Shown in pieces: positions 16,871 through 51,215 of a DNA stretch of 64,000 nt; the first letter of the stretch is position 1; every line of letters begins with the position of its first letter. A program made the translations under genes and the position numbers. This stretch comes from Bryobacteraceae bacterium. Its GTDB lineage: Bacteria; Acidobacteriota; Terriglobia; Bryobacterales; Bryobacteraceae. The notes under the pieces were generated by a model that worked only from the letters and a program-made list of their open reading frames with translations, ran no database searches and was not told where the DNA came from. The stretch spans positions 124,001 to 188,000 of the forward strand of contig JAHDVK010000003.1 in the NCBI GenBank assembly GCA_023384675.1, in the 5' to 3' direction.

Positions 16871-19159
16871 ATGACCCTCGACTGGACTCGGCGCGCGCTG
16901 CTTTCCGCGGCCGCGGCCACCCCCTGGCTGCGATTGAACGCGGACGAAGGCGCGTCGCCCTGGCGCCTCTGGTATCGCGAACCCGCTTCCCGCTGGATCG
17001 ACGCCCTGCCCCTCGGCAATGGCCGGCTCGGGGCCATGATCCACGGCGGCGTATCCACTGAAATCATTCAACTGAACGAGGATTCGCTGTGGGCCGGCCG
17101 CCCTTACCCGCAGGACGGTGCGCGTTTTCGCGAAGCCCTGCCGCGTGTCCGCGACCTGCTGTTCCAGGGCCGCTACGACGAAGCCAACGCCGTCGCCGCC
17201 AAAGGGCTTACGGGTGAGTGGGGCAAGTGGTTCGGCGCGCATCAGACCCTGGGGGATCTGGTGATCGAAACCGGCCACGCCGGAGCCGCCGGCTATGTCC
17301 GCGAACTGGACCTCGAGCGCGGCGTCGCCGAAGTGCGCTACCGCGCGCGCGGCTCCGCCTGGCGGCGCGCCGCGTTCGCCTCGCGGCCGCAAAAGGCCAT
17401 CGTCTGCCGCATTGAAGGGACCGCCCCCGTCCGCCTGCGCCTCACCGTCCGGCGGGAGCAGGCCCGCCTGCAAGCCACTGAAAAGGGGCTGCATTGGTCC
17501 GGCCAGGCGCCCGAAGGCGGCGTGCGATGGTCGGCCTCGGCGCGGATCATCGCGCCCGGAGGGCGCGTGCGCGCGGCGGGCGATTGGGTCGAAGTGGACG
17601 GCGCGGAGACGGTCACTCTCTTTATCCGCGCCTGGACCAGCTATTTCGGAGCGCCCGAACCCGAAGCCTTTACAGCGCCGGACGTCTCCTACGAAAAGCT
17701 GCTGGCCGAACACATCGCCGCTCACCGCGAGCAGTTCGGACGGGTCACGCTCGACCTCGGCGGCGCGGCGCGCGCCACCCTCCCCACGGACGAACGCCTG
17801 TACGACGTGCGAAAAGGCGGTGAGGATCCGCAACTCGCCGCGCTCTACTTTCAGTATGGCCGCTACCTGCTGATGTCGTCCTCCCAGCCCGGTTCTCTCC
17901 CGGCCAACCTGCAAGGCATTTGGAATCATTTGCTTGCGCCGCCCTGGGAGTGCGACTACCACCTGAACATCAACATCCCGATGAACTACTGGCCCGCCGA
18001 GCCCGCCAATCTCAGCGAATGCCACGAGCCGCTGTTTGATTTCGCCGAACGGCTGATCGAGCCGGGCGCCCGCGTGGCCCGTGATTTCTATGGTTTACGG
18101 GGATCGGTGGTCCACTACACAACGAACGTCTGGGGCTACGCCGAACCCGGCCACGGCTTGATTTTCGGACTTTGGCCCGATGGTCTGGCCTGGCTGGCCC
18201 GCCATTTCTGGGAACGCTGGCTCTATTCGGGCGACGAGGGCTTCCTGCGGCGGCGCGCCTGGCCGTTTTTCGAGGCGGCGGCGCGTTTTCAGGCGGATTT
18301 TCTGGTCGTGGACCCCAAAACGAAGCGCCTGGTCCCTGGTCCGGCGGCCTCGCCCGAAAACGCCTACTTGACCGCCTCGGGCCAGCGCGGAGTGGTGGCG
18401 ATGGGCTGCGCGGCGAGCGTGCAGGCCGTCCGCGACCTGTTCGGAATCGTGCTCGAAAGTGCGCGAATTTTGCGTCTGGAAGGCGACTTTTCGCTCGAAA
18501 TTGCGCAAAAACTCGCGCAGTTGCCGCCCTGGATCGAACCCGGCCGCCATGGTCAGGTGATGGAGTGGCCCGAGGACTTCGAGGAAGCCGAACCGGGCCA
18601 CCGCCACGTTTCCCATCTCTATGCGCTGCATCCCGCCAGCGCCGTGATTCCCCGCCGGGACGCGGCCTGGGCCCGCGCCTGCCGCGCGACGCTGGAGCGG
18701 CGCCTCGCCGCCGGCAGCGGCCAGACCGGCTGGAGCGCCGCCTGGATGGTGAACTTCTTCGCGCGGCTCGAGGATGGAGGCAAAGCCCACGAAATCCTCT
18801 ACAAACTGCTGCGCCAGTCCACCGAACCGAACCTGTTCGACACGCATCCTTCCGCGCGCGGGCCGATCTTCCAGATCGATGGCAATCTCGGCGGCTGCGC
18901 CGGCATTGGTGAAATGCTGGTGCAAAGCCACGCGGGCGAAATCCACCTGCTGCCGGCGCTGCCGGGAGAATGGCCCGCCGGGCACATTCGAGGCCTGCGT
19001 GCGCGCGGCGGCTACACCGTTGATTTGGAATGGGATCGGGGTCAGGTGCGGCGCGCGGCGCTCACCGCGGACCGGGCCGGCTCGGTGAAGGTCCGAACCG
19101 GCCGCGGCGTGACCGAACGGACGCACGCCGCCGGGGCCCGGATTGAAATCGGGGAATGA
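16871..19159 (+). CDS. GH95 family glycoside hydrolase (probable alpha-L-fucosidase)
   Basis: Inverting glycosidase of family GH95, typically acting on alpha-1,2-linked fucose, sometimes galactose. It has 762 residues with a probable twin-arginine signal (TRRALLSAAAA). The N-terminal beta domain has the family block ALPLGNGRLGAMIHGG. In the catalytic alpha/alpha barrel, Asn366 and Asn368 in HLNINIPMNYW match the paired catalytic Asn. The EWPEDFEEAE to HRHVSHL block (from residue 565) supplies the catalytic Glu, and Asp670 in FQIDGN completes the site. It is probably exported. AGGA lies just upstream of the ATG. The gene stands alone and converges with the cytochrome gene. Confidence 0.92.
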   Translation: MTLDWTRRALLSAAAATPWLRLNADEGASPWRLWYREPASRWIDALPLGNGRLGAMIHGGVSTEIIQLNEDSLWAGRPYPQDGARFREALPRVRDLLFQGRYDEANAVAAKGLTGEWGKWFGAHQTLGDLVIETGHAGAAGYVRELDLERGVAEVRYRARGSAWRRAAFASRPQKAIVCRIEGTAPVRLRLTVRREQARLQATEKGLHWSGQAPEGGVRWSASARIIAPGGRVRAAGDWVEVDGAETVTLFIRAWTSYFGAPEPEAFTAPDVSYEKLLAEHIAAHREQFGRVTLDLGGAARATLPTDERLYDVRKGGEDPQLAALYFQYGRYLLMSSSQPGSLPANLQGIWNHLLAPPWECDYHLNINIPMNYWPAEPANLSECHEPLFDFAERLIEPGARVARDFYGLRGSVVHYTTNVWGYAEPGHGLIFGLWPDGLAWLARHFWERWLYSGDEGFLRRRAWPFFEAAARFQADFLVVDPKTKRLVPGPAASPENAYLTASGQRGVVAMGCAASVQAVRDLFGIVLESARILRLEGDFSLEIAQKLAQLPPWIEPGRHGQVMEWPEDFEEAEPGHRHVSHLYALHPASAVIPRRDAAWARACRATLERRLAAGSGQTGWSAAWMVNFFARLEDGGKAHEILYKLLRQSTEPNLFDTHPSARGPIFQIDGNLGGCAGIGEMLVQSHAGEIHLLPALPGEWPAGHIRGLRARGGYTVDLEWDRGQVRRAALTADRAGSVKVRTGRGVTERTHAAGARIEIGE

Positions 19160-19627: not shown

Positions 19628-22600
19628 TCAGAACGCCTGTCCGATCGAGAAGAAGAAACCGCCGCGCGGCTCGCCCGGGCGGCGGTCCAGGATCAGCCCG
19701 TAATCGAAGCGCAGCAGGAAGTAGGGCGTACGGACGCGCACGCCGCCGCCGCCCGTTTTGCGAATGTCGCGCAGGCTCAGGTCGCGAATGCTGGGATAGA
19801 CGTTGCCGATATCGGAAAACGCCACTCCCTCCAGCAGACTGATGAGCGGGAACCGCAGCTCATTGTTTACCAGCATCAGCGCGTCGCCGCCCGTGGCGTC
19901 ACCGAAGAAATCCAGCGGACCCACAGCATTCAACGCGAAGCCGCGCAGCGTGGTGCCGCCGCCGGTGAAAAAGCGCTCGCTGCGCACCAGTTCCTGGCCG
20001 CGCAGCCCCGAAGCGAGGCCCACGCGCGCCGCGCCCGCGTACACGAAACGCGACCGCCGGATGCCGCCGCCCATCGGCACTTCGGCCGGTTTGGTCAGCG
20101 GCACGTACTTGAAGAACTGCCCGTAGTAGCGGACGAAATTGAGCTGCGAACCGATGCCCGCGGGCGCGTATTCCAGCGAATGCGACATGAACGAGCCGCG
20201 CGTTGCGTCCAGCAGCTCGTCGCGCGATTCGCGATTCAGGGTCCAGGTGAGCGGCGCAACCCGCAATGAGACATCGAACGGGAAGAACGGATCCGGGATG
20301 CGGTCGTAGGTGCGCACGTTCTCCATCCGGTAGCCGTAATTCATCGTGTAGCGCTGGCCGAAGCGCAGCTCCTGCTGGGCCGAGACGCCCGCGCGGTCGT
20401 TGATGAAATCGGGCAGGATCTCGCGCCGCAAATACGTGGTGGCGATGGTCTGCAGCGGCAGGCGCTGCAGCAGCGGCTGCGAGAAAAAGAAGCGCGTCTC
20501 GCGGATCTCGCCGTCCAGCCGCCCGCGCCAGCCCAGCGTGCGCGCCGAGCCGAGCGAATTGCGGTTGGTGATGTCGATCACGGCGCCGGGGCCGCGGTCC
20601 GTGTCGAAGTACGCGCCGTAACGGATGTCGAACGGCTGCACCTCGCGGACGCGCGCCCGCAGGCGAATGGGCTGCTGTCCAGTGGTGATGTTGCCGCCGC
20701 TCACCGGCACGCGCTCCACGTCCACCAGCGCGAAAGCGCCTGTTGCATAGAGGCGGCGGCGCGACAGGCTCACCTTCGAGGGATCCAGAACGTCCCCTGG
20801 CTGAAGCGCGAGCTGCGAGCGGATCAGCCGCTCGCTCACCGCGCGCTCGCCTTCCACCTCGAGGCTTTCCACCACCTGCTGCGGGCCTTCGGTGATTTGC
20901 ACGTCCAGATCCACCTGTCCCGGCTTTTCCGCGCGCACGACGCGCGTTTCCACCTGGGCGTTGGTGTAGCCGGACGAGTAATATGCATCGAGCACGCGGT
21001 CGAGCGACTCCTGCCGCAGAACGGGCGTGTAGGACGCTCCGCTGCGCAAGGGCATTTTCCCGATCAGGTCGTCGCTCTTGAACGCTTCATTGCCCGCCAG
21101 CCGGATCTCGCTCACCTCGAAAGCGGGACCTTCTTCCACCTCGATCGTGACCGTGGCGCGGCCCGCTTCGCGGTCGAATTCCACGCGCGGCGCGGGCGTC
21201 ACGGTGTCCAGATAGCCCTTCTCGCGGTACACACCGCGCACCAGGTCAGTCACGCGCCGAGCGTTAAGGAATAGAATCGGGCGTAGTTTGCCCTTGTCGA
21301 TCGCCGCGGTCAGCTCCTTCGCGGATACCGCCTCGTTGCCCTCGAACACAAGCGCGGGCTTGCGGTAACGCACGCCCGGTTCGGACTTGAAGGTCACCGT
21401 GCGCAGCCCCGGTTCGGTGTCTTTGACCTCCGCCTCCACTACGGCCTCGAAGTGGCCGCGCCGCACGAGGGTCTCGCGCAGCGCGCGGGCGGTTTCATCG
21501 AGACGCTGGCCGTCGAACACGCCATCGCGCCAGAGGTCGCGCACCTGCCGGCGGACCTTGCGCGAGGGCGCGTAGCCTTCGAAGTTGAGCAGCACGCGCG
21601 GGCCTTCCTCGATCGTCAGGGTGAGATCGACTTCGGTGTCGTGGACCTCGCGCTCCAGGCGCAGGCGGGCTTCCAGCCGGTCCCGCTTGTCGTAGTCCTT
21701 CGCGATCCGGTCCAGCCCCTGGCGGATGTTGAAGAAATCGTAGCGGCGGCCGGGGCGGGCTTTCAGGCGCTTGCGCAGCCGGTCCTCCGTGAAGAGGTCA
21801 TTGCCGCTGACTTGGACCTCGCCGATGCGCCGCCGGGCTTGCGTTTCGCGGCGTTGACTCGGGTCGCCGCCGAAGCGGACATCGTGGCGGAACTCGAAGC
21901 GGTAGGTGTTGTCCACCTGTTTGACGCCGCGCGCGACGAAGCGGCGTGTAAGGTCGTATTCGGCCACCCACACCTGATCGCCGCCGTTGGCGAGGTTCAT
22001 CGAGTAAATCAGCCGGGCGTCGCGCGTAATGTCTTGTCCGACGGTGAGCCGCGCCGTGGGGTTCGATTCGGCGGCGATCAGATCCGGCTCCACGCGTACC
22101 TTCGAGAGGCCCGTGGCGCGCTCGATCTCGCGCGTAAAACGCCCGCCGAGGCTGCCGGCGAGGTAGCTCAGCACCTGCCGGCTCGCCATCGTAGAGGCAT
22201 CCGAACCGCGGATCTCTTCGAGCGGACGTCCCGTGATGAGCACCGCGATGATATCGGGCTCCGGTTCGGGTGGATCGCTGGTGAGGCGGGTTTCGATCCG
22301 CTCGGCGCCGCCGCCTTCCACCTGCAGGGTGATGTCGAGCCCGCCGGCGCGGGTGCGCGCCAGGATGTCCAGCGAAGGCTCGATGCGCTGCTCGTTGGTG
22401 AAGGTGATGCGCCCGCGCTCCAGCGGGTAGGTGCGTTCGGCGAGATAGAGTTCGCCGCCTTCCTCGATTTCGATACGGCCGAGCAGGCTGGGCCGGTAGG
22501 GTGTGCCCACCACGCGCAGGTCGGTGTTGACTTCAGCGCGCGCGAGGTTGTTATTGATCAGCAGCGGCGCCACGGTCTTCAGGTTGATGTCGAGGCGCGT

Positions 22601-25600
22601 GCGCTCCAGGATCTCGTTGCGCTCCTCGGTGAGGTCCACGCCCTGCTCGGAGTTCAGGTAGGCCAGCAGCCCGGTCTCGAGCGCCAGCACTTCGCGGAAC
22701 GCGCCTTCGACAAGGTCGATGTTGCCCGAGAGCAGAAAGCCGCTGCCCTCGTTGCGGAAACGCAGCGCGGTGTTCGACACGGTGCGGAAATCGGCTGGGT
22801 AATCCAGATAGACTCCCGTGGCGCCGAGTTGGATGTCTGTCTCGCCGAGCGTTCCCCCGTTGAGACGGACGCTGCCGCTGCCCGAGAGCTTACCGCCGTT
22901 CAGCAGGCCGCTGAGCCTGGCGATGGTAATCTGCTCGCCGTCGAATTCGACGCGCGCGTTCACCGCTTCGGCGGCCAGGCGCGGCTCGGGCACGTTCATC
23001 TCGAGGTTGGTGAGTTCGAGGAATCCGGCGGTCTTCAGATCGTCCAGCGGGCCGCGCGCGCTGAAGTCGATGGTGGCGGGGCCGCGCAGCCGCAATGGCT
23101 CCAGCAAGCCAGCGAGCAGCCCGGTTTCCAGACGCCCCTGAAAGCGGAAATCGGCGGCGGGGGTTTCGAGCAGCGTCGCGCTCCCGGTTAGATTCAGTTC
23201 GGTGCCCGGACCGGTGAGCGTGAAGTCCGTCACTTCCACTTTGCCGTTTTCGAGGCGAATCGTCGAAGGCGCTTTCTGCGCCACGGGGATGTCGGACAGG
23301 CGCAGCTGCAACTCATCGAAGGTGAGCGCGGCGCGCACGGCTGCCAGTTCCGGCGCGCGGCTTTCGGCGGTCAGACGGAGCGAGATCAAGCCGGAAGTCA
23401 GCTCGGGCGCGCCTTCAATGTTCGCGGGGTCCAATCCCTCCAGCGCGATTTTGGCCTGCGCCGGCGGACCGTCCGCGGTCAGCGGCCACGGCGAAGAGGC
23501 GCTGCCCGAAAGCTTCGCGCCCGCCCATTCGCCGGTCAGCCGCGTGAGTTGAAACAGGTTGTCGCGCAGCGCCGCCTCGAGTTCCAGCCCGTTCACGGGA
23601 TTCAGGCCCTCGGCTTCGAAGCGGCCTCCGGCGAGCGAAACCTGGGCTTCGGGTTCATATTTCTGCAGGGTTCCGCGCACGGCGGCATTCAGCGCGATTT
23701 TGCCCTCAATGTGCTGTTTTTCGGGCCATTCCGGCATGAATTTTGGCAATTCCGCGAGATCGGCGTTCGCGGTGAGCCGCAATTCGCCCGGCGCACCCGT
23801 TTCCGCCAACGGAAACTCGCCGCTGAGGGAAACGGCCGTGCCCGCCGTGCGGATCTCGCCTTGCCGGATATGGAGCCGCAGGCCCGCCACTTCCACATCC
23901 AGCGGGCCTTCCGTGGTGATCGCCTGTCCTTGATAGACCAGCGCTTCCGGTTCCAGAGTCAGCCGCGCGTTCAGCTTTTCCGGCGTCTCCAGCGGGCCCT
24001 CGCCTTTCAACAGCGCGCGCAGCTTGCCGGTGAGCGGCAGGTTTTCAGGCAGCGGCAGCGCTGCGAGGTCCGTGCCCGCGGCTTCGATGGTGAAGGTGGC
24101 AGGGTAAGGCGCTTCGATTCCCGTACGCAGGCGGCCCTGCAGCGCGTAGCGCGGGGCTTCGAGTTCCACTGTGGCCTTGCCCGCGGCGACCTGCGTGAGA
24201 GTTTTGATGGCGCCCAATTCCAGCTCGTCCACCAGCAGCGACTCGACGCTCGCCGCCAGCCGCAGCGCCGGCTCCTTGATTGTGCCCGCGCCTTCGCCCT
24301 CCAGCTTGAGTACGCCACGAATAGGAAGTTTTTCGGGCAGTTCGAGCTGTTCCAGCCGTAGCGCCGCGGCTTGCAGCGTAACGCGGTATTCTTCCTGTTC
24401 CAGGTTGTACTCGCCTGCGAACGTGAGCGGTTCGCTGCCCGGTTTGTCGAGGCGCGCTTCGCGCAGCGTCACCGTATCACCGCGATAATCAGCCAGCAGG
24501 CGGAGTGCGCCGAGTGGTTCGCGGTAGGCTTCCAGGCCGGAGGCGGTGAGTTCGACGCTCGCCGCAAGCTGATCGACCGGCCCTTCCGCGCGGGCGGTGA
24601 GCGTGAAATCGCCGCGCACGGGCAGATCGTGGATTCCTAGCCCGGGAAGCGTGTTTTCGAGCGAAAAACCATCGCTTTTTGCGTCAAAAAGCAGCTCCGG
24701 AACCGCTTTTTCGAGGTCCAGATGGCCCGTGCCGCGCACCTGCTGCCCGCGCCAGGCGAGCATCAGTTCCGCGATTTCGACAGCCTTTTGCGAGGCCGTG
24801 AGCGAGGCGTCGAGCGTGGCGCCTTCGACATCCCCCGCGCCCAGATTGCGGCCCGCCAGAGTCGCGCTCACGCGCGGGTCCTCGACAGTTCCGGAAAGCC
24901 GCGCCTCGAGGCGCGCTTCGCCCCGCAGCGTTTCTTCCACGGCATCGAGGGCGGGCACATCCAGCGTGAAATTGCCCGACAAGCGCCGCGCGGCGTCCAT
25001 CGCCGCCTGCCCGGTGAGCCGCACGCCCTCGTAATCCCGCACCTCGGCGGTGATGCGCGCGCGGGCCTGGGCCTGGTCGAAATCGAGCGCGGGCATCCAG
25101 GCCTCGGCGTTGAGAACCGCGCGGGTATTCAGCGGAAGCTGGCGGTCGAGGCGGGCGGTGGCGGTGAGGCGCGTTTCGCCCGCGGCCTCGCTGAGGGCGG
25201 CGGACCCTTTCACGCGCAGGGTGCCGTAGGGGCTGGCGGCTTGCAGGTTTGTGAGGTACAGCCGCTGTTCGTCGAGGTTGAAGTGCGCGGCGGCGGCCAG
25301 CCCCACGTCGAAGCCCTTGCCCGCAAGTTCAAAGGTGAAGTCCGGGCCGTTGGCGGTTCCGGCAAGCATCAGCGAGCCGGGCGTGAAGGGCCGCAGATCG
25401 GCCTCGACGGTGAAGCGGGCATCCTCCAGCAGCAGGGTTTTGGGATTCACCTTGCCCTGCAGATAGACGGTCTTGACGGTGACGCGATCGTTCTCATAGC
25501 GGACGTAGCCCGGCTGCGAATTGCCGAAGTAGAGGTCGCGGTCCGTCAGGTGCAGCCGCCAGGCGGGCACTTCGGCCTCGGCCTGGAGGGCGTCGTCGCG

Positions 25601-26071
25601 GAAGCGCAGCGTGCCGTCCTGGAGGAGCAGTTCGGTGACGCGCCAATCCGGCGGAGTGAACGGCTCATCGTCTTCCGCCGGCGGCGGCTGGGGGATGTTC
25701 GACCGGCCATCGGCGGTGAAGACCGCCTCCACCGCGGGCCGGTCCACGAAGAAGCGTTCGACATCGATCTCGCCGCTCCAGAGCGTGCGCCAGCGCACGC
25801 TGAGTTCCATGCGGCGGGCCGCGAACACGGGCGGCAGATCCGGCTGACTAGCGGCGCGCACTTCGAGGCCGCCGATCCACAGCTTCAATTCGGGCAGGCT
25901 GTAGTCGAGAGACCCCACGCGCAGGTCCACATCATAATCGCGGAGAATTGTTTGGACTTTGGCGAAGACGGCGTAACGCGCGCGGTCGGTGTGCAGCACG
26001 AAGAGGCCCGCAGCGGCGAGCAGGATCAGGGCGCCCAACCCCCATGCGCAGATGCGTACGAACCGCCTCAC
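19628..26071 (-). CDS. Giant TamB-Omp85 (TamA/BamA-like) fusion protein
   Basis: One uninterrupted 2147-residue frame that joins two normally separate proteins. Residues about 7-27 are an N-terminal membrane anchor. Residues 30-1400 are AsmA/TamB-like beta repeats ending in the TamB (DUF490) C-terminal block, recognisable by EPEPDIIAVLITGRPLEEI near 1270. Residues about 1412-1805 contain five POTRA units (first begins RIGEVQVSGNDLF). Residues 1806-2147 are an Omp85 barrel with GGGTTLRGF near 2040 and a terminal Phe. The chain could span inner membrane, periplasm and outer membrane alone. By TamA/TamB analogy it may insert outer-membrane proteins or move lipids. The start is a GTG at 26069-26071, 22 bases after the TPR gene; the ribosome-binding site is weak. 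Confidence 0.93.
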   Translation of the reverse strand: MRRFVRICAWGLGALILLAAAGLFVLHTDRARYAVFAKVQTILRDYDVDLRVGSLDYSLPELKLWIGGLEVRAASQPDLPPVFAARRMELSVRWRTLWSGEIDVERFFVDRPAVEAVFTADGRSNIPQPPPAEDDEPFTPPDWRVTELLLQDGTLRFRDDALQAEAEVPAWRLHLTDRDLYFGNSQPGYVRYENDRVTVKTVYLQGKVNPKTLLLEDARFTVEADLRPFTPGSLMLAGTANGPDFTFELAGKGFDVGLAAAAHFNLDEQRLYLTNLQAASPYGTLRVKGSAALSEAAGETRLTATARLDRQLPLNTRAVLNAEAWMPALDFDQAQARARITAEVRDYEGVRLTGQAAMDAARRLSGNFTLDVPALDAVEETLRGEARLEARLSGTVEDPRVSATLAGRNLGAGDVEGATLDASLTASQKAVEIAELMLAWRGQQVRGTGHLDLEKAVPELLFDAKSDGFSLENTLPGLGIHDLPVRGDFTLTARAEGPVDQLAASVELTASGLEAYREPLGALRLLADYRGDTVTLREARLDKPGSEPLTFAGEYNLEQEEYRVTLQAAALRLEQLELPEKLPIRGVLKLEGEGAGTIKEPALRLAASVESLLVDELELGAIKTLTQVAAGKATVELEAPRYALQGRLRTGIEAPYPATFTIEAAGTDLAALPLPENLPLTGKLRALLKGEGPLETPEKLNARLTLEPEALVYQGQAITTEGPLDVEVAGLRLHIRQGEIRTAGTAVSLSGEFPLAETGAPGELRLTANADLAELPKFMPEWPEKQHIEGKIALNAAVRGTLQKYEPEAQVSLAGGRFEAEGLNPVNGLELEAALRDNLFQLTRLTGEWAGAKLSGSASSPWPLTADGPPAQAKIALEGLDPANIEGAPELTSGLISLRLTAESRAPELAAVRAALTFDELQLRLSDIPVAQKAPSTIRLENGKVEVTDFTLTGPGTELNLTGSATLLETPAADFRFQGRLETGLLAGLLEPLRLRGPATIDFSARGPLDDLKTAGFLELTNLEMNVPEPRLAAEAVNARVEFDGEQITIARLSGLLNGGKLSGSGSVRLNGGTLGETDIQLGATGVYLDYPADFRTVSNTALRFRNEGSGFLLSGNIDLVEGAFREVLALETGLLAYLNSEQGVDLTEERNEILERTRLDINLKTVAPLLINNNLARAEVNTDLRVVGTPYRPSLLGRIEIEEGGELYLAERTYPLERGRITFTNEQRIEPSLDILARTRAGGLDITLQVEGGGAERIETRLTSDPPEPEPDIIAVLITGRPLEEIRGSDASTMASRQVLSYLAGSLGGRFTREIERATGLSKVRVEPDLIAAESNPTARLTVGQDITRDARLIYSMNLANGGDQVWVAEYDLTRRFVARGVKQVDNTYRFEFRHDVRFGGDPSQRRETQARRRIGEVQVSGNDLFTEDRLRKRLKARPGRRYDFFNIRQGLDRIAKDYDKRDRLEARLRLEREVHDTEVDLTLTIEEGPRVLLNFEGYAPSRKVRRQVRDLWRDGVFDGQRLDETARALRETLVRRGHFEAVVEAEVKDTEPGLRTVTFKSEPGVRYRKPALVFEGNEAVSAKELTAAIDKGKLRPILFLNARRVTDLVRGVYREKGYLDTVTPAPRVEFDREAGRATVTIEVEEGPAFEVSEIRLAGNEAFKSDDLIGKMPLRSGASYTPVLRQESLDRVLDAYYSSGYTNAQVETRVVRAEKPGQVDLDVQITEGPQQVVESLEVEGERAVSERLIRSQLALQPGDVLDPSKVSLSRRRLYATGAFALVDVERVPVSGGNITTGQQPIRLRARVREVQPFDIRYGAYFDTDRGPGAVIDITNRNSLGSARTLGWRGRLDGEIRETRFFFSQPLLQRLPLQTIATTYLRREILPDFINDRAGVSAQQELRFGQRYTMNYGYRMENVRTYDRIPDPFFPFDVSLRVAPLTWTLNRESRDELLDATRGSFMSHSLEYAPAGIGSQLNFVRYYGQFFKYVPLTKPAEVPMGGGIRRSRFVYAGAARVGLASGLRGQELVRSERFFTGGGTTLRGFALNAVGPLDFFGDATGGDALMLVNNELRFPLISLLEGVAFSDIGNVYPSIRDLSLRDIRKTGGGGVRVRTPYFLLRFDYGLILDRRPGEPRGGFFFSIGQAF

Positions 26072-29369: not shown

Positions 29370-30347
29370 ATGAGCCTGACCCGACGCAATTTCCTGGAAG
29401 GCGCCGCGCTGTCCGCGCTGGCCGCACAAGCGGTAGTCACCGCGCAGGATCCGAAGACCGGCATGCCGATGCGCACGCTGGGCCGTACGGGCGAGCGAGT
29501 GTCTCTGCTGGCGCTGGGCGCGGGCTCCCGCTGGCTCATGTACAAGGATCTGGACAAGGGTCTGGAGGCCCTGGACCGCGCGCTGAAGGCGGGCATCAAC
29601 TACGTGGATTCCGCCGCTTCCTACGGGGACGGCCAGAGCGAGTCCTGGGTCGGTGAGTATCTGAAGACGAACAAGAAGACTTTCTTCCTGGTGACCAAGA
29701 TCACGCCTCGCAAAGGCGACGAAGCCAAGCGCCAGATCGAACGCAGCCTCAAGCTGCTCGGCGTTTCGCAGGTGGATCTGATGCACGTCCATGCGCTCGG
29801 CAACGAGGACGACCTGGCGCAGGTGGAGGCCAAGGGCAACATTCTCGATGTGCTCTACCAGATGCGCGAGCAGAAGGTGGCGCGCTTCATCGGCGTCACC
29901 GCGCACACGAATCCGCAGGTCACGAAGACGCTGCTGGAGCGGCAGGACCTGGATTCGGTGCAGATGGCGCTGAACATCGCGCAGATCGGCAATTCCGCGC
30001 CTTCGAACCGGGTAGGCCAGGGGCAGACCGGCGCCTCCGGCTTCGAACGCATCGCCATGCCCGTGGCGCTTAAGAAGAACATGGGCCTCACCGCCATGAA
30101 GGTGTTCGGCCAGGACAAACTGCTGCCCGCCGCGCCCATCGAGACGCTGCTGCGCTACGCGATGTCGCTGCCGGTTTCGGCGGCGGTGGCGGGTATGCCG
30201 AAGCTCGAGATGCTGGAAGAGAACATTCGCGTCGCCAAGGCCTTTAAGCCGCTGTCGCGCGATGAGATGAAGGCGCTGCCGGAATCCGTCTCACAGCAAC
30301 TGCGCGCTTCGCTCGATCATTTCTTCGCCAACCATGCCGACGTCTAA
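29370..30347 (+). CDS. Aldo/keto reductase with a twin-arginine-type signal
   Basis: NAD(P)H-dependent oxidoreductase of the aldo/keto reductase superfamily, 325 residues. The N-terminus (MSLTRRNFLEGAALSALAAQ) is a twin-arginine signal, so the folded enzyme is probably exported or anchored outside the cytoplasm. The AKR core is visible as MRTLGRTGERVSLLALGAGS, the Asp and Tyr of VDSAASYGDGQSE, the Lys of TKITPR and the His of MHVHAL, forming the catalytic tetrad. The substrate is unknown; many acidobacterial relatives occur with sugar genes. It overlaps the FkbM gene by 14 bases. Confidence 0.88.
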   Translation: MSLTRRNFLEGAALSALAAQAVVTAQDPKTGMPMRTLGRTGERVSLLALGAGSRWLMYKDLDKGLEALDRALKAGINYVDSAASYGDGQSESWVGEYLKTNKKTFFLVTKITPRKGDEAKRQIERSLKLLGVSQVDLMHVHALGNEDDLAQVEAKGNILDVLYQMREQKVARFIGVTAHTNPQVTKTLLERQDLDSVQMALNIAQIGNSAPSNRVGQGQTGASGFERIAMPVALKKNMGLTAMKVFGQDKLLPAAPIETLLRYAMSLPVSAAVAGMPKLEMLEENIRVAKAFKPLSRDEMKALPESVSQQLRASLDHFFANHADV

Positions 30348-31005
30348 GCCGCCGCTTACGCCCGAGGAGCGGCTCGCGAAATATCTTCGGGACGCCAGCG
30401 ATTACTGGTTTCACGTGTACAAGCCCCACGCCGGCGACGTGATCGTCGATGTCGGTGCGGGCCGCGGCGAGGATGTGTACGCTTTCGCCCGCGCGGTGGG
30501 GCCCACGGGCCGCGTGTGGGCGATCGAAGCGCACCCCGAATCGTTCGGCGAACTGGTGAAACTGTGCGAGGAACACCGGCTGAAGAATGTGACCTGCCTG
30601 AACCTGGCCTGCCTCGACCGGCCGGGCCAGTTTCAGATCGAGACATTGCCGGTGTGGGAGTCGAATTACGTGCGCGAAGGCGAACCGGCGCCGACCTCCC
30701 ACCCGGTGGAGGGCATCACCTTTGACGCGCTGGCCCGCCGCCACGGCATCGGCCGGATCGATTTCCTCAAGATGAACATCGAGGGCGCCGAGCGCCTCGC
30801 GCTGCCCGGCATGAAGGAAGCGATGAAGCGCATCAGCTACGCGTGCGTCTGCGCGCACGACTTTCGCGCCGACCGCGGTGAAGGCGAGGATTTCCGCACG
30901 CGGGCGTTCGTCGAGAAGTTTCTCCGCGACGCGGGATTCGCGCTGGTCTCCCGCGATGACGATCCGCGCTATTACGTGCCGTATCACATTCACGGGCGGC
31001 GCTAA
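30334..31005 (+). CDS. FkbM family SAM-dependent methyltransferase
   Basis: A 223-residue class I methyltransferase of the FkbM type. The SAM-binding stretch is IVDVGAGRGEDVYAFA (about residues 36-51), followed by WAIEAHPESFGEL and the family motif IDFLKMNIEGAERLAL (about 145-160). FkbM enzymes methylate hydroxyls on sugars, lipids or polyketides; the acceptor cannot be told. Its ATG lies inside the end of the aldo/keto reductase gene, so the two are translationally coupled. No glycosyltransferase genes are adjacent, which is unusual for a glycan-modifying methyltransferase. Confidence 0.85.
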   Translation: MPTSKPPLTPEERLAKYLRDASDYWFHVYKPHAGDVIVDVGAGRGEDVYAFARAVGPTGRVWAIEAHPESFGELVKLCEEHRLKNVTCLNLACLDRPGQFQIETLPVWESNYVREGEPAPTSHPVEGITFDALARRHGIGRIDFLKMNIEGAERLALPGMKEAMKRISYACVCAHDFRADRGEGEDFRTRAFVEKFLRDAGFALVSRDDDPRYYVPYHIHGRR

Positions 31006-31047: not shown

Positions 31048-32718
31048 ATGAACTCTTTCTTTCTTCTCCCGTTGTTGGCCGGCGCGTTGCTTGCCCAGCC
31101 CTCACTGCTTTCTCCCGAGCCCGCGCCGTGTGTCCCCGTCAATCCCCACGCCACCCCCGAGGCACGTGCGCTGCTGCACACGATTTGCGCGCTTTCGGGC
31201 AAGCAGATCCTCTCCGGTCAGCACAATTTCCCCAACCATCGCTCTCGCCACAGCGAACGGCTGGCGCAACTGACCGGCAAGCACCCTTACGTCTGGGGTT
31301 CGGATTTCGGCTTCACGGGCGGCGACGACAAGGACTCGATTGAAGGCCGTGACGGCATGATCGCCGAGGCCATCCGGCAGCATGCGGCGGGCTCGATCAT
31401 CACTCTGATGTGGCACGTAGTCCGGCCGACCGATGATGAGCCGGTGCAACCCGGGATCGGCTGGCGGCAGAGCGTGCAGAACCGGTTGAACGACGACGAG
31501 TGGGCGGCGCTCGTCACGCCCGGGACCGCGCTGAACCGGCGCTGGCTCGCGCAGATCGACACCATCGCGCCTTACCTCAAGAGATTGCAGGAGGCCCGGA
31601 TCCCGGTGCTCTGGCGGCCGTATCACGAAAACAACGGCAATTGGTTCTGGTGGGGCGCGCGCCCTGGCGCCAACGGGTTCGCGGCACTCTGGAGGATGAC
31701 GTACGAGCGGATGGTCCACTTTCACCGCCTCGACAACCTGCTGTGGGTCTGGAATCCCAATGCGCCCAACCGCAACGCGGGGCCGTATCATGAATTCCAT
31801 CCGGGCGGAGAATACGTCGATGTCTATGCCGCCGATATCTATGGGCCTTACGACCAGAGCCACCATGATGAACTGCTGACGCTGGCCAAGGGCAAACCCA
31901 TCGCGTTGGGCGAGATCGGCCGCCCGCCCACGCTGGAGACTCTGCGCAGTCAGCCGATGTGGACCTGGTTTATGGGCTGGTCCGACATTTTTGACCGGGA
32001 AGCGACGCCCGAACATCTTGCGCTCTTCAACGATCCGAAAACGCTCTCGAGAGGAGACAAGTTGCCGCAAATGGGGGCGTGGGCAGCGATCTTCGATGGA
32101 AAAACGCTGAACGGCTGGCGCGTGGAAGCCAAGCCCGAGGACCGCGGCAAGGAGTTCTGGAGCGTGACGGACGGCGTGATCCAATGCGACTCGCTTGGAC
32201 GTAAGGACCACGACTACGTGTGGCTGCTGCATGAGCGCGAGTACTCCGATTTCGAGCTGCGCATGCAGGTGCGCGGCTTCCGCGATTCGCCGGGCAATTC
32301 AGGCGTGCAGTTCCGCAGCCGTTACGACCGGCAGATGGGCTGGCTGCATGGTCCGCAAGCCGACATTCATCCTCCGGCGCCATGGCGCACCGGCCTGATC
32401 TACGACGAAACGTGGGAAACGCGCCGCTGGATCGCACCCTCACTGAAGGACTGGCGGATTGAACCGGAGCAGGGGCCGAAGCGCTGGAACTGGGACCCGC
32501 GCGGCTGGAACGATCTGCACATCATCTGCCTGGGTACGCGCATCATCACGTCCGTCAACGGGATTCGCATCACCAATGAAGACCTGGGCGCTGTGCTGAC
32601 CGATGAGGCGCACCGCAAACGCAACGTGGGCATGAAAGGCCATATCGCACTGCAATTGCATTCGAAGGATGAGCTGAAAATTCAATTCCGAAATATTGAA
32701 GTGCGCGAGCTCCGTTGA
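31048..32718 (+). CDS. GH26 glycoside hydrolase fused to a DUF1080 (3-keto-glycoside hydrolase-like) domain
   Basis: A 556-residue two-domain secreted protein with signal peptide MNSFFLLPLLAGALLAQ. Residues about 35-325 are a GH26 barrel; the acid/base Glu194 lies in WRPYHENNGNWFWWG and the nucleophile Glu289 in IALGEIGRPP, so mannanase-type activity is likely. Residues about 344-555 are a DUF1080 jelly-roll domain that begins AIFDGKTLNGWRVEA, a family now linked to 3-keto-glycoside hydrolysis and also carried by carbohydrate-binding proteins. I infer that one polypeptide cuts a mannan-like chain and binds or processes its products. GGGAGG lies 5 bases upstream of the ATG. Confidence 0.88.
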   Translation: MNSFFLLPLLAGALLAQPSLLSPEPAPCVPVNPHATPEARALLHTICALSGKQILSGQHNFPNHRSRHSERLAQLTGKHPYVWGSDFGFTGGDDKDSIEGRDGMIAEAIRQHAAGSIITLMWHVVRPTDDEPVQPGIGWRQSVQNRLNDDEWAALVTPGTALNRRWLAQIDTIAPYLKRLQEARIPVLWRPYHENNGNWFWWGARPGANGFAALWRMTYERMVHFHRLDNLLWVWNPNAPNRNAGPYHEFHPGGEYVDVYAADIYGPYDQSHHDELLTLAKGKPIALGEIGRPPTLETLRSQPMWTWFMGWSDIFDREATPEHLALFNDPKTLSRGDKLPQMGAWAAIFDGKTLNGWRVEAKPEDRGKEFWSVTDGVIQCDSLGRKDHDYVWLLHEREYSDFELRMQVRGFRDSPGNSGVQFRSRYDRQMGWLHGPQADIHPPAPWRTGLIYDETWETRRWIAPSLKDWRIEPEQGPKRWNWDPRGWNDLHIICLGTRIITSVNGIRITNEDLGAVLTDEAHRKRNVGMKGHIALQLHSKDELKIQFRNIEVRELR

Positions 32719-44528: not shown

Positions 44529-46019
44529 TTACTCGAGGCGGCTGCCGGCCCACAGCATCGCGTTGCGCAGCAGCCTTTGGAACCAGGGGTTTTCGTGCGC
44601 CTCGCGGCCGTGGCCGAGTTGGATGACGGCGACGCGCGCGGGCTTGTAGGGGCTGATCCAGGCGATCACTTCATCGCTGGTGGCTTCGTTCGTGGTGATG
44701 AGCGGAGTGATGTCCGGCGCCTGCCAGACGCCCTTGTAGGTTTCGTCGCGAATCCACATGGGGGGCAGTCCGCGCACGATCGGATGGCCGCCGGTGGGGC
44801 GGGCTTCGAGATCGACGTCGTGCTTGTAGGTGGAGCCTTTGGCGTTCAGTGCAGGCCGGTCCTTAAGCAGGTACTGCCCGCCGGCCATGGCGCGCCACCA
44901 GTCCCAGTCCTGGTAGTTCGCCAGGGCGTGGTGCAGAACGACGATGCCCTTGCCGGCTTCGGCGAAGTCGCGCAAGTTCTTCCGCTGATCCTCGGGCACG
45001 TCCTGGATCATGTCGTACATCACGATGACGTCATAGCGTTTGCGCAGGTCGCCGCGGAAGGCGACGGGATGCGGGTTCACGTTGACGCGGATACCGGGGT
45101 GGCCTTCGAAGGCGGCGTAGAGCGAGGCGTCGTGATCGTGGCCGCCCGCTACGAGGAGTACGCGCAGGGCGTTCTTTTCTTTCGGTTCGAGCGGGAGTTC
45201 CGGGGGCAGGGTCACGAGGCCGGTGGCGACCCACTCGACGCCGCGTGCGAAGGAGTCAATGAAGCCCTGGGCCATCATGGCGGGGACGTCGTGGCCGAGG
45301 GCGGTGTGGAAGACGCGACCCTGGCCGTAGGCGTTGGTCCAGAGGATGGGTTCGCGCGCACCCGTCCCTTTCTGATCCGGGCTGTCGTAGGCGCGGGCGA
45401 GCACGCGGATGGAGGGCGAGAGGACGAAGCGGGAATAGAGTTCGTCGGAGACTTTGAATTTCACCGGGAGGTTCGCGGCGATGGGGTGCGCGGCTTCGGT
45501 CCACTCCACTTCAAAGACGTGGCGCCGGGAGTGGCCGGTGCGCTTTTCGCCGTCCTGCCAGCGCGCGCCGAGCATCTTTTCCCATTCGGACCACGGCTCT
45601 TCGCGCACATCGGTGCGGCCCATCTTCGAGCCGAGTACGGGCATGATGCCGAAGGGATAGGAGGCTGCGTGGACGGCCACCAGGCCCTTGCCCTGGCGGA
45701 CAAAGGCGGCGACGGCGTCTTCGGCCTGGGCGCCCCAGCGCGGGCCGCAGTAGTCAGAGACAAGAGCGTGGTAGGGGCGCAGGGTTTCGCGGGTCAGGCC
45801 CGCGGGTTCCTCGGTGACGCGGACGTCAAACCGGCCGGTGGCTTCGAGGATGCGGCGGAGGTGGGCGGTGGAAGCGCGCCAGTCGTGGTTGTTGCGGCCG
45901 CTGAGGATGAGCACGCGCGTCTTGCCGGGCTCGAAGAAGAACTCGTCCTTCAACTGCTGGGCGGGCAGCAGCGCCGCCGCCAGCAGGCTAACCGACCACG
46001 CGCAACGAATCGTGCTCAT
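44529..46019 (-). CDS. Tandem ThuA-domain protein
   Basis: A 496-residue protein with two ThuA-like glutamine-amidotransferase folds. The first (about residues 33-270) has RVLILSGRNNHDWRAS and GKGLVAVHAASYPFG; the second (about 283-495) begins ALRVLLVAGGHDHDASLYAA and has GKGIVVLHHALANYQD. Both keep the family His in the HHA/VHA strand. The first 22 residues (MSTIRCAWSVSLLAAALLPAQQ) are a signal peptide, so the protein is exported. ThuA is linked to trehalose and 3-keto-disaccharide use with Gfo/Idh enzymes. It overlaps the isomerase gene by 32 bases, and the operon begins with a Gfo/Idh gene. The reaction is not settled. Confidence 0.88.
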   Translation of the reverse strand: MSTIRCAWSVSLLAAALLPAQQLKDEFFFEPGKTRVLILSGRNNHDWRASTAHLRRILEATGRFDVRVTEEPAGLTRETLRPYHALVSDYCGPRWGAQAEDAVAAFVRQGKGLVAVHAASYPFGIMPVLGSKMGRTDVREEPWSEWEKMLGARWQDGEKRTGHSRRHVFEVEWTEAAHPIAANLPVKFKVSDELYSRFVLSPSIRVLARAYDSPDQKGTGAREPILWTNAYGQGRVFHTALGHDVPAMMAQGFIDSFARGVEWVATGLVTLPPELPLEPKEKNALRVLLVAGGHDHDASLYAAFEGHPGIRVNVNPHPVAFRGDLRKRYDVIVMYDMIQDVPEDQRKNLRDFAEAGKGIVVLHHALANYQDWDWWRAMAGGQYLLKDRPALNAKGSTYKHDVDLEARPTGGHPIVRGLPPMWIRDETYKGVWQAPDITPLITTNEATSDEVIAWISPYKPARVAVIQLGHGREAHENPWFQRLLRNAMLWAGSRLE

Positions 46020-46848
46020 TGTAGGCCTCCAGGATCGTGTTCAGGTGATGGAGGCTTCGTTCGGCCTGTTCGGGCGTCCCGCACTCCACCGAGAGAACCC
46101 CATTGTAATTGGCGCTGCGCAGGATTTCCGTGATGCGCCGCCAGTTGATAACGCCATCGCCGCAGGCGCAGCCGACGGGCGTGCCGGTGGTCTTGCCGCG
46201 CAGGGTTTCGCCGGTACCGGGATCGATGTCCTTGGCGTGGATATGCACGACGCGGTCCACGACGGCCTGGAGGCCTTCGTAGGGATCGGCGCCGCCGAGC
46301 CAGGCGTTGCCGGTGTCGTAGTTCACGCGGAGCATGGGGGAATCCACGAGATTGACGATGGAAAGCAGCCCCTCGGTGGTTTTGGTGATCTCCTGATGGG
46401 GCTCGATGGCGACGAACACATTGTGGCGTTCGGCGGTGCGGAGGACGGTGTTCAGCGTGTATTTGATGACGCCGAGCGCCTCATCGCGGGGGACCCATTT
46501 CGGGCGGATGCCCTCGTCGGTGTTCACGACGCGCGCGCCGAGGGCGGCGGCAAACCGGATGGCGCGTTCGAGCCAGGGGACGGAGATTTCGGGCCGCATG
46601 AGCGGCGCGTGGGAGGAGAGGCCCGAAACGCGCAGGCAATACTGCTGCAACAGATCGCGGATCAGGAGAGGGTCTTCGTCGAGGGAGACCGAATGGAAGT
46701 AGCCCGCCTCGCTCAACAGTTCGCGCCCGTTGTGGACCATAGGTTCCACCCACTGGTAGCCGATGCGCGAGGCGCGGTCCAGCCCGGCGAGAAAGGGTTT
46801 GTCCTCGCAGCGGATGAACTCGAGGTTCAGTCCTGGATAGATGTTCAT
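45988..46848 (-). CDS. Sugar phosphate isomerase/epimerase (xylose-isomerase-like TIM barrel)
   Basis: A 286-residue TIM-barrel protein of the AP-endonuclease-2/xylose-isomerase-like superfamily. Conserved segments are VAIEPHQEITKT (metal-binding Glu and His), LRVNYDTGNAWL (Asp) and VHIHAKDID (His-Lys-Asp), then LSVECGTPEQ near the end. Such enzymes isomerise or epimerise sugars, often the keto-sugars made by Gfo/Idh dehydrogenases. It has no signal peptide and is probably cytoplasmic. It starts 10 bases after the Gfo/Idh gene and overlaps ThuA by 32 bases. Confidence 0.9.
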   Translation of the reverse strand: MNIYPGLNLEFIRCEDKPFLAGLDRASRIGYQWVEPMVHNGRELLSEAGYFHSVSLDEDPLLIRDLLQQYCLRVSGLSSHAPLMRPEISVPWLERAIRFAAALGARVVNTDEGIRPKWVPRDEALGVIKYTLNTVLRTAERHNVFVAIEPHQEITKTTEGLLSIVNLVDSPMLRVNYDTGNAWLGGADPYEGLQAVVDRVVHIHAKDIDPGTGETLRGKTTGTPVGCACGDGVINWRRITEILRSANYNGVLSVECGTPEQAERSLHHLNTILEAYNEHDSLRVVG

Positions 46849-46858
46849 GATAATCCCC

Positions 46859-48031
46859 TTAGATATCCCATTCCGGCCGCCAATCCACGCGTGAGCGGGT
46901 GCGGTAGGCCATGTTGAGCAGGTGGCAGGCCATGGCGCCGTAGTGGCCGTCGTACACGGTGGCGCTGGGCTCCTGGCGCGATTTGATGCAGGCGAAGAAG
47001 TTCGCCATATGCGCCACTTCGGGCGAGCGGTCGAGCGTCTCGGCGGGGCCTTTGTCCGCGGGCAGGAAGCGCGCGCGGTGGCGGAAGATGCTGAGGCGTC
47101 CGCCCTCGCCGAAGAAGACGATGTCGGCCGATTCCTCGGGCAGAAGATCGGTGATGGTGGCTTCGAAAGTGACGGTCAGATTTTCGTTGTATTCGACGAT
47201 GCCGTTGACGTTATCGGGCGTGTCGCGGCCGTCGTCATACTGATAAATTCCGCCAAGGCAGACCGCGGAACGGGCTTTGGTGAGGCCCAAATACCAGTGG
47301 ACGACATCCACCATGTGGACGAACAGGCCGCCGGTCTGGCCGCCGGTGGCGAAATCCCAATAGGCGAAGCGGTTGAAGTAGCGTTTCGGGTCCCAGGGGA
47401 TTTTGGGGAGCCAGCCGAGGACGGCGTCCCAGTCGAGGCCGTCCGGCTTGCGCTCCATGCCGGCGGGCGGTTTGGTGAGGTAGCCGGTGTTGGCGTTCCA
47501 CACGGTGCGGACCATGTGGACCTTGCCGAGGCGGCCCGAATCCACCCAACGCTGCTTGGCTTCGATGAAGTGGGCGAGCGAACGCTGCTGCACGCCGACC
47601 TGGACGACTCGCTTGTGCCGGCGCTGCGCCTGGAGCATGGGCGGGCCTTGCTCGGGCAGCGAGGTCATGGGTTTTTCGACGAAGACATCCTTGCCCGCTT
47701 CGCAGGCGGCGATGGTGATGGGGGCGTGGGTGTGATCCAAAGTGGCGACGATGACGGCGTCGAGGTCCTTGCGTTCGAGCAGGCGGCGGTAATCGCCGTA
47801 GTCGTCCACCTGGCGTCCGGCGAACTTCATGGATTCGCGGCGGCGCACGTCCCAGGCATCACAGATACCAACAAATTCGCAGCCGCCGGCCTGATTGGCC
47901 ATGCGCATAAGGTGCTGCCCGCGGCTTCCCGACCCGATGACTCCGAGGCGGATCCTTTCGTTGGCGCCCAGGACGCGGGCGGCGCTCGCGGCGGTGGCGA
48001 GCGCGGCGCGCCGGGTGATTGTCAGCGGCAT
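46859..48031 (-). CDS. Gfo/Idh/MocA family oxidoreductase with twin-arginine-type N-terminus
   Basis: NAD(P)-dependent sugar dehydrogenase family, 390 residues. The N-terminus TRRAALATAASAARVLG looks like a twin-arginine signal. The Rossmann motif RLGVIGSGSRGQHLM lies at about 27-41, and the catalytic Lys is in the family motif FVEKPMTS (about 117-124). It probably oxidises a glycoside at C3, consistent with the ThuA and isomerase genes that follow; this is inferred. The ATG has AGGAGGA upstream. It is first of the three-gene operon. Confidence 0.92.
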   Translation of the reverse strand: MPLTITRRAALATAASAARVLGANERIRLGVIGSGSRGQHLMRMANQAGGCEFVGICDAWDVRRRESMKFAGRQVDDYGDYRRLLERKDLDAVIVATLDHTHAPITIAACEAGKDVFVEKPMTSLPEQGPPMLQAQRRHKRVVQVGVQQRSLAHFIEAKQRWVDSGRLGKVHMVRTVWNANTGYLTKPPAGMERKPDGLDWDAVLGWLPKIPWDPKRYFNRFAYWDFATGGQTGGLFVHMVDVVHWYLGLTKARSAVCLGGIYQYDDGRDTPDNVNGIVEYNENLTVTFEATITDLLPEESADIVFFGEGGRLSIFRHRARFLPADKGPAETLDRSPEVAHMANFFACIKSRQEPSATVYDGHYGAMACHLLNMAYRTRSRVDWRPEWDI

Positions 48032-49547: not shown

Positions 49548-51125
49548 CTACACGGTCAGGAGCAGGTGGTCGGGGCAGCCGCGGTGAATGTTGTTTTCGA
49601 TCGTGTCGAGCAGGCTGAAGCCATGCTGCGCCAGAAACGGCAGGACCGAATAGTAGCGCTCCTGCAACACGTGCTCCGGAAACACGAGATTGCTGAGATG
49701 CGCGGCGCTTTCGCTCACCACGGTGTCGCGCCGCAACGCCTCGCGCGCGGCTTTGCGGCGGTTCTTCTCGACCTGATAGAGGATCTTCGCCTTGCTCTTC
49801 GACATGGCGGCGCCGAGCGTGGGATCGAAGCCGGCGAGTTCGCCTTCCAGCCGGTCGAGCACGGCGCGGATCTCGGACTGAGCCTGTTCAAACGTCAACT
49901 GGAGCGATGAGGGCACCAGGTCCGCAGCGATGCGTTCTTTCAGCGGTTCAAGGCCGTGGAAACAGCCGGGCAGCGTCACGCCATGGCGGTCCATCAGCGA
50001 GTGCGCTCGCTCGTCCAGCAGCGTGAAGCCCGACCGGGGTACCGCTACCGGCATGCGGCCCAGCAAAGCCTGGTAAAGAACCTGAGACTGCGCAAGATAC
50101 GCCAATTCCGCGGGCCCGCCGACATAGGCCACGGTCGGCAGCAGATAGTCCTGCATCACCGGCCGCAGCAATGCGTTCGGCGAAAGCAATTCCGGTGTCC
50201 CGGCGAGTTCGGCGGCGCTCAGCCTGCGAGTCTCATGAAAGTAGTCCGTCCCATTGCGACGCAGATGCAGCCGGCGCCCGTTCTCGAGCCTGAAGAAAAG
50301 CGACGTTTGCGCTTCGAACAGAACCTGCGCGTGATAGCCGGCCTCCTTCAACTCCTTGCCACGGGCCTGGATCGCGTCCGATAGCTCGGGGGCGCGCTCG
50401 AAGGCGGCACGCAGCAGCGGCGCGGCCAGGCTGCGAATCTCGGGCTGCAATGGATCGATGAAGACCACGCCCGAACCGGCCAGCAGCCGCGACATCAGCA
50501 GCCGGAAGGCTTCGCCCAGCGTGCGGCCCGGGCGGTAACAGCCCGCCACGAGTTCCAGCACCTCATCGGCATACAGCAGCCCCTGAAGCGCAGCGCGCAG
50601 TTCCTCCAGGGGAACCTCGACAATCTCCATGCCGCCCACCGGCTGTCCCGCCGCGCCGCGCGCGCGCATTTGCAGCCGCAGCGGGCGGTGGCGGCTGTCA
50701 TAGACGTGGCAGTGGTCCACTTCGTCGAAATCGTGATCCTCGGTGGCCAGCCAGAAGACCGGCACGGCGCGGATGCCTTCTTCGCTCAACTGGCGCGCCA
50801 GCCGGGCGGCGGTGAGCGCCTTGTAGATGGAGTAAACCGGACCGGAAAACAGGCCCACCTGCTGCCCCGTGACCACCGCAACCGTATCGGGCAGTTCCAA
50901 CTGGTCGAGCGAGGTGCTTTCGCCATTGATCTTGCGCAGCGCCGACACTAGCCTTTGGCGGCGGTCGTCCGGCGTTTGAATGTGGGTTGCCGCCTCCCGC
51001 AGCGCTTGCGGATCATGCGGGTTATGCCCGTAAAACCCCGCCACGCGCGGAAAATGGTAGAGGTAATCGGCAAAGAGCGAACTCGTGCCGGGCAGTTCCG
51101 TGTGCGGAAGACAGATGCTCTTCAT
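49548..51125 (-). CDS. bshC: Bacillithiol biosynthesis cysteine-adding enzyme BshC
   Basis: Proposed last step of bacillithiol synthesis, adding cysteine to GlcN-malate. I use the ATG at 51123-51125 (MKSICLPHTELPGTSS), 525 residues, close to the family length. Conserved blocks are VVTGQQVGLFSGPVYSIYKA, VFWLATEDHDFDEVDH, YVGGPAELAYLAQ and the late coiled region. Neither bshA nor bshB lies in the window. BshC in a diderm supports an acidobacterial origin, where bacillithiol use is known in some lineages. It is divergent from the frataxin gene with 90 bases between. Confidence 0.93.
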   Translation of the reverse strand: MKSICLPHTELPGTSSLFADYLYHFPRVAGFYGHNPHDPQALREAATHIQTPDDRRQRLVSALRKINGESTSLDQLELPDTVAVVTGQQVGLFSGPVYSIYKALTAARLARQLSEEGIRAVPVFWLATEDHDFDEVDHCHVYDSRHRPLRLQMRARGAAGQPVGGMEIVEVPLEELRAALQGLLYADEVLELVAGCYRPGRTLGEAFRLLMSRLLAGSGVVFIDPLQPEIRSLAAPLLRAAFERAPELSDAIQARGKELKEAGYHAQVLFEAQTSLFFRLENGRRLHLRRNGTDYFHETRRLSAAELAGTPELLSPNALLRPVMQDYLLPTVAYVGGPAELAYLAQSQVLYQALLGRMPVAVPRSGFTLLDERAHSLMDRHGVTLPGCFHGLEPLKERIAADLVPSSLQLTFEQAQSEIRAVLDRLEGELAGFDPTLGAAMSKSKAKILYQVEKNRRKAAREALRRDTVVSESAAHLSNLVFPEHVLQERYYSVLPFLAQHGFSLLDTIENNIHRGCPDHLLLTV

Positions 51126-51215
51126 GCGGTAAAGATCAGCCCCGGTTCCTTCTCTAGAGGGTAGCAGACGCATCCCGGCGGGCGGATGCGCCATCTATTA
51201 GACTGAGCAACAGGC

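Follow-up and report, generated by a model that had tools for sequence, protein, structure and literature searches.

The window (the whole stretch of 64,000 nucleotides analyzed here) holds a gene that joins a GH26 hydrolase domain to a DUF1080 domain in a single chain. The DUF1080 domain belongs to a tight subfamily that we designate 'type A', a label of our own, and its Pfam family, PF06439, previously called DUF1080, now bears the name 3keto-disac_hyd. The fusion gene, its parts and the other genes of the window that enter its interpretation are as follows:

29370..30347, plus strand: aldo/keto reductase with a twin-arginine-type N-end, the latter read by eye (Pfam PF00248)
30334..31005, plus strand: FkbM-family methyltransferase (Pfam; NCBIfam TIGR01444)
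31048..32718, plus strand: GH26-DUF1080 fusion gene, 556 amino acids from an ATG start (Pfam, AlphaFold2)
31048..31110, plus strand: signal-peptide-like N-end, about residues 1-21 (sequence read by eye; pLDDT mostly below 50)
31138..32052, plus strand: GH26 catalytic domain, residues 31-335 (PF02156, 166.9 bits, cut-off 20.2; fold match to 6q75)
31627..31629, plus strand: Glu194, predicted acid/base, in RPYHENNG (aligned with a Glu of 6q75)
31912..31914, plus strand: Glu289, predicted nucleophile, in ALGEIG (aligned with a Glu of 6q75)
32053..32079, plus strand: junction, residues 336-344 (read by eye against stand-alone relatives)
32080..32706, plus strand: type-A DUF1080 domain, residues 345-553 (PF06439, 111.1 bits, cut-off 26.8; fold match to 4jqt, Z 22.9)
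32356..32364, plus strand: Q437-A438-D439, at the E-Y-Q position of BT2157/AL2 (alignment; Q437 and D439 invariant in the subfamily)
44529..46019, minus strand: ThuA-family protein, signal-like at its N-end, in which two stretches match ThuA (domain search)
45988..46848, minus strand: TIM-barrel isomerase-like protein (domain search)
46859..48031, minus strand: Gfo/Idh oxidoreductase with a twin-arginine-type N-end (domain search)

The fusion announced by the original prediction stands: its frame is intact, with no internal stop, and both Pfam scores lie far above their cut-offs. Read by eye, the junction passes from the tail of stand-alone GH26 relatives directly to the point where the mature form of stand-alone DUF1080 relatives begins, a second signal peptide is absent there, and GC3 is alike on the two sides (0.80 versus 0.76). 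AlphaFold2, run on 49 aligned sequences, modelled the whole protein with a mean pLDDT of 91.2 and a pTM of 0.71, and the predicted folds of the two domains match solved structures (6q75 for GH26, 4jqt for DUF1080). Modelled alone, the DUF1080 half reached a pLDDT of 94.0 and a pTM of 0.91; the lower pTM of the whole protein would fit two rigid domains with no fixed mutual orientation. Our literature search found no report that pairs GH26 with DUF1080.

The GH26 active site is likewise as predicted, since Glu194 and Glu289 both align with a Glu of 6q75 and are invariant across the 21 rows of the alignment; from general GH26 knowledge, we take the former to be the acid/base and the latter the nucleophile. 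The best solved match of this half is Muricauda GH26A (6q75, 305.7 bits by sequence), and the best 26 structure matches align to the GH26 half, most of them carrying GH26 or mannanase in their titles (exceptions: 3cbw and 3tp4). No other GH26 match exists in this genome, and activity as a hydrolase is very probable for the GH26 half. The window also encodes a GH95-family glycoside hydrolase (16871..19159, plus strand). Elsewhere in the Acidobacteriota, GH26-GH26 tandem proteins were seen (L008:7875-9890, L010:7848-9935 and L018:7925-9955), whose second domain shares 33 to 35% identity with the GH26 domain of the window; at the last of these loci, a distant DUF1080 frame (28% identity) lies 5.7 kb downstream.

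After 4jqt, the fold matches of the DUF1080 half include 9fbe (Z 19.2), 8v31 (18.9), 8tda (18.6), 3osd (18.6) and 8rr2 (18.5). By their titles, 3osd is BT2157, 9fbe and 8rr2 are 3-keto-glycoside eliminase/hydratases, and 8tda (Bacteroides BT2) and 8v31 (Alistipes AL2) are 3-keto-2-hydroxy-glucal hydratases; from matching names, positions and scores, 8rr2, 9fbe and 8tda would all be the BT2157 protein of 3osd. Both BT2157 (3osd) and AL2 (8v31) carry E-Y-Q-V-L-D-N-x-x-H, which is a stretch that they share and not a verified catalytic set; the window domain has Q437-A-D439-I-H-P-P instead, so that the BT2157/AL2 activity cannot simply be transferred to it. The proposed link to 3-keto-glycoside hydrolysis thus holds for the fold, which is that of solved eliminase/hydratases, but not for the shared E-Y-Q...DNxxH stretch. 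The subfamily has invariant polar residues of its own: H388, Y390, Q437, D439, E454, H522, Q536 and H538 are constant in the 28 type-A rows (counted on columns filled in at least 26 of them), and all are kept in the fusion. Our literature search found no open paper on BT2157 residues, and none for the term '3-keto-disaccharide hydrolase'.

The genome of the window contains 36 PF06439 matches, several of them in tandem, with varied residue pairs at the E-x-Q position. When 33 of these, all but two short pieces and the match in the fusion itself, were aligned with the window domain, the E-x-Q strand read E-x-Q in 22 of the 34 rows, Q-A-D in two (the window domain and one paralogue), Q-x-E in two and otherwise in eight. 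This paralogue set is probably functionally mixed under one family name. None of it gave a further type-A match at E 1e-45.

Genome searches scored the best few first-look candidates (mostly 3 to 12 per genome), and the counts that follow are lower bounds. Type A is present in at least 21 of 237 genomes of the family, that of the window included, and outside the family in at least 2 of 337 genomes in the Verrucomicrobiota search, 4 of 294 in the Planctomycetota and 1 of 296 in the Bacteroidota, each count including the genome used as search center. In the tree, the DUF1080 domain of the window groups with those of G166, G167 and G113, with a moderate support of 88/92 that is below the tool's mark for a firm branch; from this placement it looks like an ordinary family copy. 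GH26 relatives occur in at least 33 of the 237 family genomes, weak or partial matches such as those in G124 and G224 included. GH26 and type A were found together in 3 of the 237 genomes compared to 2.9 expected; co-occurrence is thus at chance level, and the halves do not spread together.

Among the best candidates scored in each genome, only the genome of the window yielded the full fusion, both in the family search (1 of 237 genomes) and in the phylum sample (1 of 396). A conserved architecture was rejected, as neither the family nor the phylum search returned a second example. A search of 84,980 species genomes returned 39 loci, at none of which a GH26-DUF1080 fusion was seen; at three of them the GH26 frame (L007, L009) or the DUF1080 frame (L020) meets a contig end and allows no judgement. 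That search relies on exact short peptide matches, which distant fusions may escape. In G167, of the same genus, the halves are separate genes, 70% (GH26) and 67% (DUF1080) identical to those of the window; they lie near contig ends and in the same direction, so that a gap of a few kb between them is possible. The close sister genome G165 (84% complete) gave no match to either half, and its gene upstream of gltX resembles, by eye, one for a propeller-type sensor. The sequences indicate a fusion that is real, so far single, and probably derived in this lineage by the joining of genes.

Type A has other partners. We read 20 of the 21 family copies (the one left aside is a 233-amino-acid frame in G142): 15 consist of type A alone after a signal-like N-end, 3 are C-terminal to another enzyme, namely GH26 in the window, a metallophosphoesterase (L124) and a cyclophilin (L126), and in 2 a further DUF1080 domain, of the E-x-Q type, comes after type A (L125, L129). 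Of eight copies outside the family, six stand alone, one follows a ThuA domain (L139) and one is truncated at a contig end (L020/L138). The N-terminal fusions outside the window, with partners named by Pfam, are:

L124:6170-7834: calcineurin-like metallophosphoesterase joined to type A
L126:5631-6866: cyclophilin joined to type A
L139:568-2181: ThuA joined to type A

By eye, the signal-peptide end of the stand-alone copies is where the join sits in each of the four N-terminal fusions, a pattern that favors module shuffling over misassembly. A rather doubtful extension is that type A is a portable C-terminal module plugged onto secreted enzymes of unrelated chemistry, whose shared address would be one envelope or matrix glycan; type A would either recognize this glycan or process it with a Q/D site that differs from the site of the known 3-keto enzymes.

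The surroundings of the fusion gene are compact. The aldo/keto reductase gene overlaps the FkbM gene, which ends 42 bases before the fusion gene; gltX and glnS (both named by eye) and a carbamoyltransferase gene follow downstream, and all genes of the series, from aldo/keto reductase to carbamoyltransferase, share the plus strand, no two neighbors being more than 45 bases apart. The original prediction had looked further, to a Gfo/Idh-isomerase-ThuA set 14 kb away that could supply 3-keto chemistry. Such a set exists, but it begins 11.8 kb beyond the fusion gene and lies on the minus strand. PMC10628242 describes an Agrobacterium operon that encodes a Gfo oxidoreductase together with a TIM-barrel eliminase and a presumed hydratase of isomerase-like type, and this gives a precedent for Gfo and isomerase genes serving 3-keto chemistry; against the proposed supply in the window stand the other strand, the distance and little recurrence. 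In 12 neighborhoods of separate relatives (E 1e-15), the ThuA, isomerase, aldo/keto reductase and FkbM proteins of the window were not found, and its only recurring neighbor was one Gfo match (34%, L080), on which ground a conserved operon with 3-keto genes was rejected as unproven. Pfam analysis of 27 neighbor frames in seven loci of separate relatives returned mostly housekeeping or unnamed genes (the frames come from a simple caller and several are probably antisense). Only two resemble sugar redox genes: a PQQ-dehydrogenase gene (L073) near the stand-alone DUF1080 gene of G166, a member of the same genus, and, in G167,

L071:5482-6531: Gfo/Idh gene, situated upstream of the separate GH26 gene at a distance of 3.1 kb (Pfam)

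The link between the fusion and the Gfo/isomerase/ThuA genes is weak, and the aldo/keto reductase is a nearer redox candidate. The genome also contains two PF13618 genes, a family that we presume to be linked to LacABC-type 3-dehydrogenases.

Other features of the window were noted. A frame of 2147 amino acids (19628..26071, minus strand) combines AsmA/TamB-type segments, POTRA repeats and an Omp85 barrel, thereby uniting the functions of TamB and TamA in a single protein. Matching frames of more than 2100 amino acids exist in G165, G108, G105, G098 and G1564, and any match at all was obtained in 10 of 41 genomes searched (its own included) and in none of the other 31; this frame is older than the species, but patchy. 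A BshC bacillithiol-biosynthesis protein is encoded at 49548..51194 (minus strand). Domain searches of three frame sets left 6 of 10, 2 of 9 and 1 of 5 frames with no match, and short repeats in the sequence look like chance.

Our preferred explanation is that of a secreted GH26 retaining hydrolase whose substrates are probably short chains of beta-mannan type, and which acquired a portable type-A module by gene fusion in this lineage. Hydrolysis would follow the standard two-Glu mechanism. Specificity may be like that of Muricauda GH26A, narrow and perhaps exo-acting on manno- and glucomanno-oligosaccharides, to go by the properties given in PMC9860051. The DUF1080 module would mainly bind a glycan or hold the enzyme at its substrate or within the envelope, in the manner of CBM66, rather than perform the next chemical step. 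With binding or targeting as the first choice for the module, we judge this explanation to be about evenly poised. In its favor are the separate halves in relatives, the other partners of type A, the chance level of co-occurrence, the absence of E-Y-Q...DNxxH and the fold match to CBM66. Against it, secreted copies that stand alone, as 15 of 20 do in the family and 6 of 8 outside, are odd for a pure binding module, and the invariance of H388, Y390, Q437, D439, E454, H522 and H538 in 28 rows appears enzyme-like. Moreover, the fusion to ThuA hints at sugar chemistry, as do the proteins in which a canonical E-x-Q DUF1080 domain follows type A, and to the same side belong the Gfo/Idh gene near the G167 GH26 gene, the PQQ-dehydrogenase gene near the G166 DUF1080 gene, and a DUF1080 endo-glucanase of Thermogutta reported in PMC10881899.

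These objections lead to the first alternative, in which the protein has two activities: GH26 would trim the chain, and DUF1080 would cleave or hydrate a related sugar derivative, perhaps a 3-keto one, with a Q/D site of its own. We regard it as possible, with the balance of the evidence on the other side. The fold of the 3-keto eliminase/hydratases and the seven invariant polar or aromatic positions are what would be expected, and BT3469, in which an N-domain with Q-x-E and GGIYDEAR precedes an E-x-Q DUF1080 domain, has the same arrangement as L125 and L129. The two PF13618 genes and the exported-looking aldo/keto reductase just upstream also fit; the redox genes near the separate genes of G167 and G166 point the same way and are too little to shift the balance. 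On the other hand, the E-Y-Q...DNxxH stretch is absent, the halves are unassociated, type A has partners of unrelated chemistry, and just 2 of 27 neighbor frames in seven loci look like sugar redox genes. The stronger form of this idea, a matched two-step enzyme acting on a mannan-like chain and then on a modified product, found no support: the halves are separate elsewhere and co-occur at chance level, and type A is also found on a metallophosphoesterase, a cyclophilin and ThuA.

A second alternative, which overlaps the other readings, is that two working secreted proteins were recently joined in frame by chance and kept their old jobs, the linkage itself being functionless. The restriction of the fusion to one genome of 237 and of 396, the lack of a shared distribution of the halves, and the difference in pTM between the domain alone and the whole protein, as with freely moving domains, are all compatible with such a neutral event. 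We consider it rather unlikely in view of the four different N-terminal partners of type A, in four genomes and each time without a signal peptide of its own on the module, which looks like repeated use. Finally, an erroneous joining of two contigs inside the gene is very improbable: the fusion does come from a single draft assembly (60 contigs) and G165 has another gene upstream of gltX, but the join is in frame, exactly between domains and devoid of a second signal peptide, GC3 hardly changes across it, and the genome has no other GH26 match, nor any other type-A match at E 1e-45.

The preferred explanation, a secreted GH26 hydrolase with a portable DUF1080 module, has a bearing on nomenclature. 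The name '3-keto-disaccharide hydrolase' given by Pfam covers many proteins, with as many as 36 matches in this one genome, and type A is a well-defined subfamily, in a little-studied part of the family, that has the fold of the solved 3-keto enzymes, lacks their shared motif and behaves as a portable module. It bears on whether the Pfam name carries to such branches.

Among known systems, the GH26 half is closest to Muricauda GH26A (6q75), with a Z of 45.4, an rmsd of 1.1 over 300 residues, 45% identity and both catalytic Glu residues in common, although the solved protein is without a DUF1080 domain. Relative to Podospora GH26 (3zm8), both have an insertion near residues 237-246, which is 4 residues shorter in the window protein than in 6q75; it may be the same loop that PMC9860051 reports as blocking the +2 subsite. 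For the DUF1080 half, the levan-binding module CBM66 (4azz) has a similar fold (Z 17.9, rmsd 2.4 over 159 residues, 18% identity), and PMC5673643 states that DUF1080 and CBM66 overlap; the Z score is 0.6 to 1.3 under those of the 3-keto enzymes, so that fold alone does not decide between the two. THTE_1561, an endo-glucanase/xanthanase, belongs to the same DUF1080 family, a likeness drawn from its description in a review (PMC10881899). BT2157 and AL2 share with the window domain the fold (Z 18.5 to 19.2), the GNSG strand and the C-terminal Q-x-H; in PMC9007349, BT2157 is named a 3-ketotrehalose hydrolase and CCNA_01705 is proposed as a 3'-ketolactose hydrolase. The closest solved DUF1080 domain remains the N-domain of BT3469 (4jqt; Z 22.9, 30% identity), an uncharacterized tandem DUF1080 protein that is not joined to GH26: this domain has the Q-x-E strand and GGIYDEARRxW in common with that of the window, and is followed by a DUF1080 domain of the E-x-Q type.
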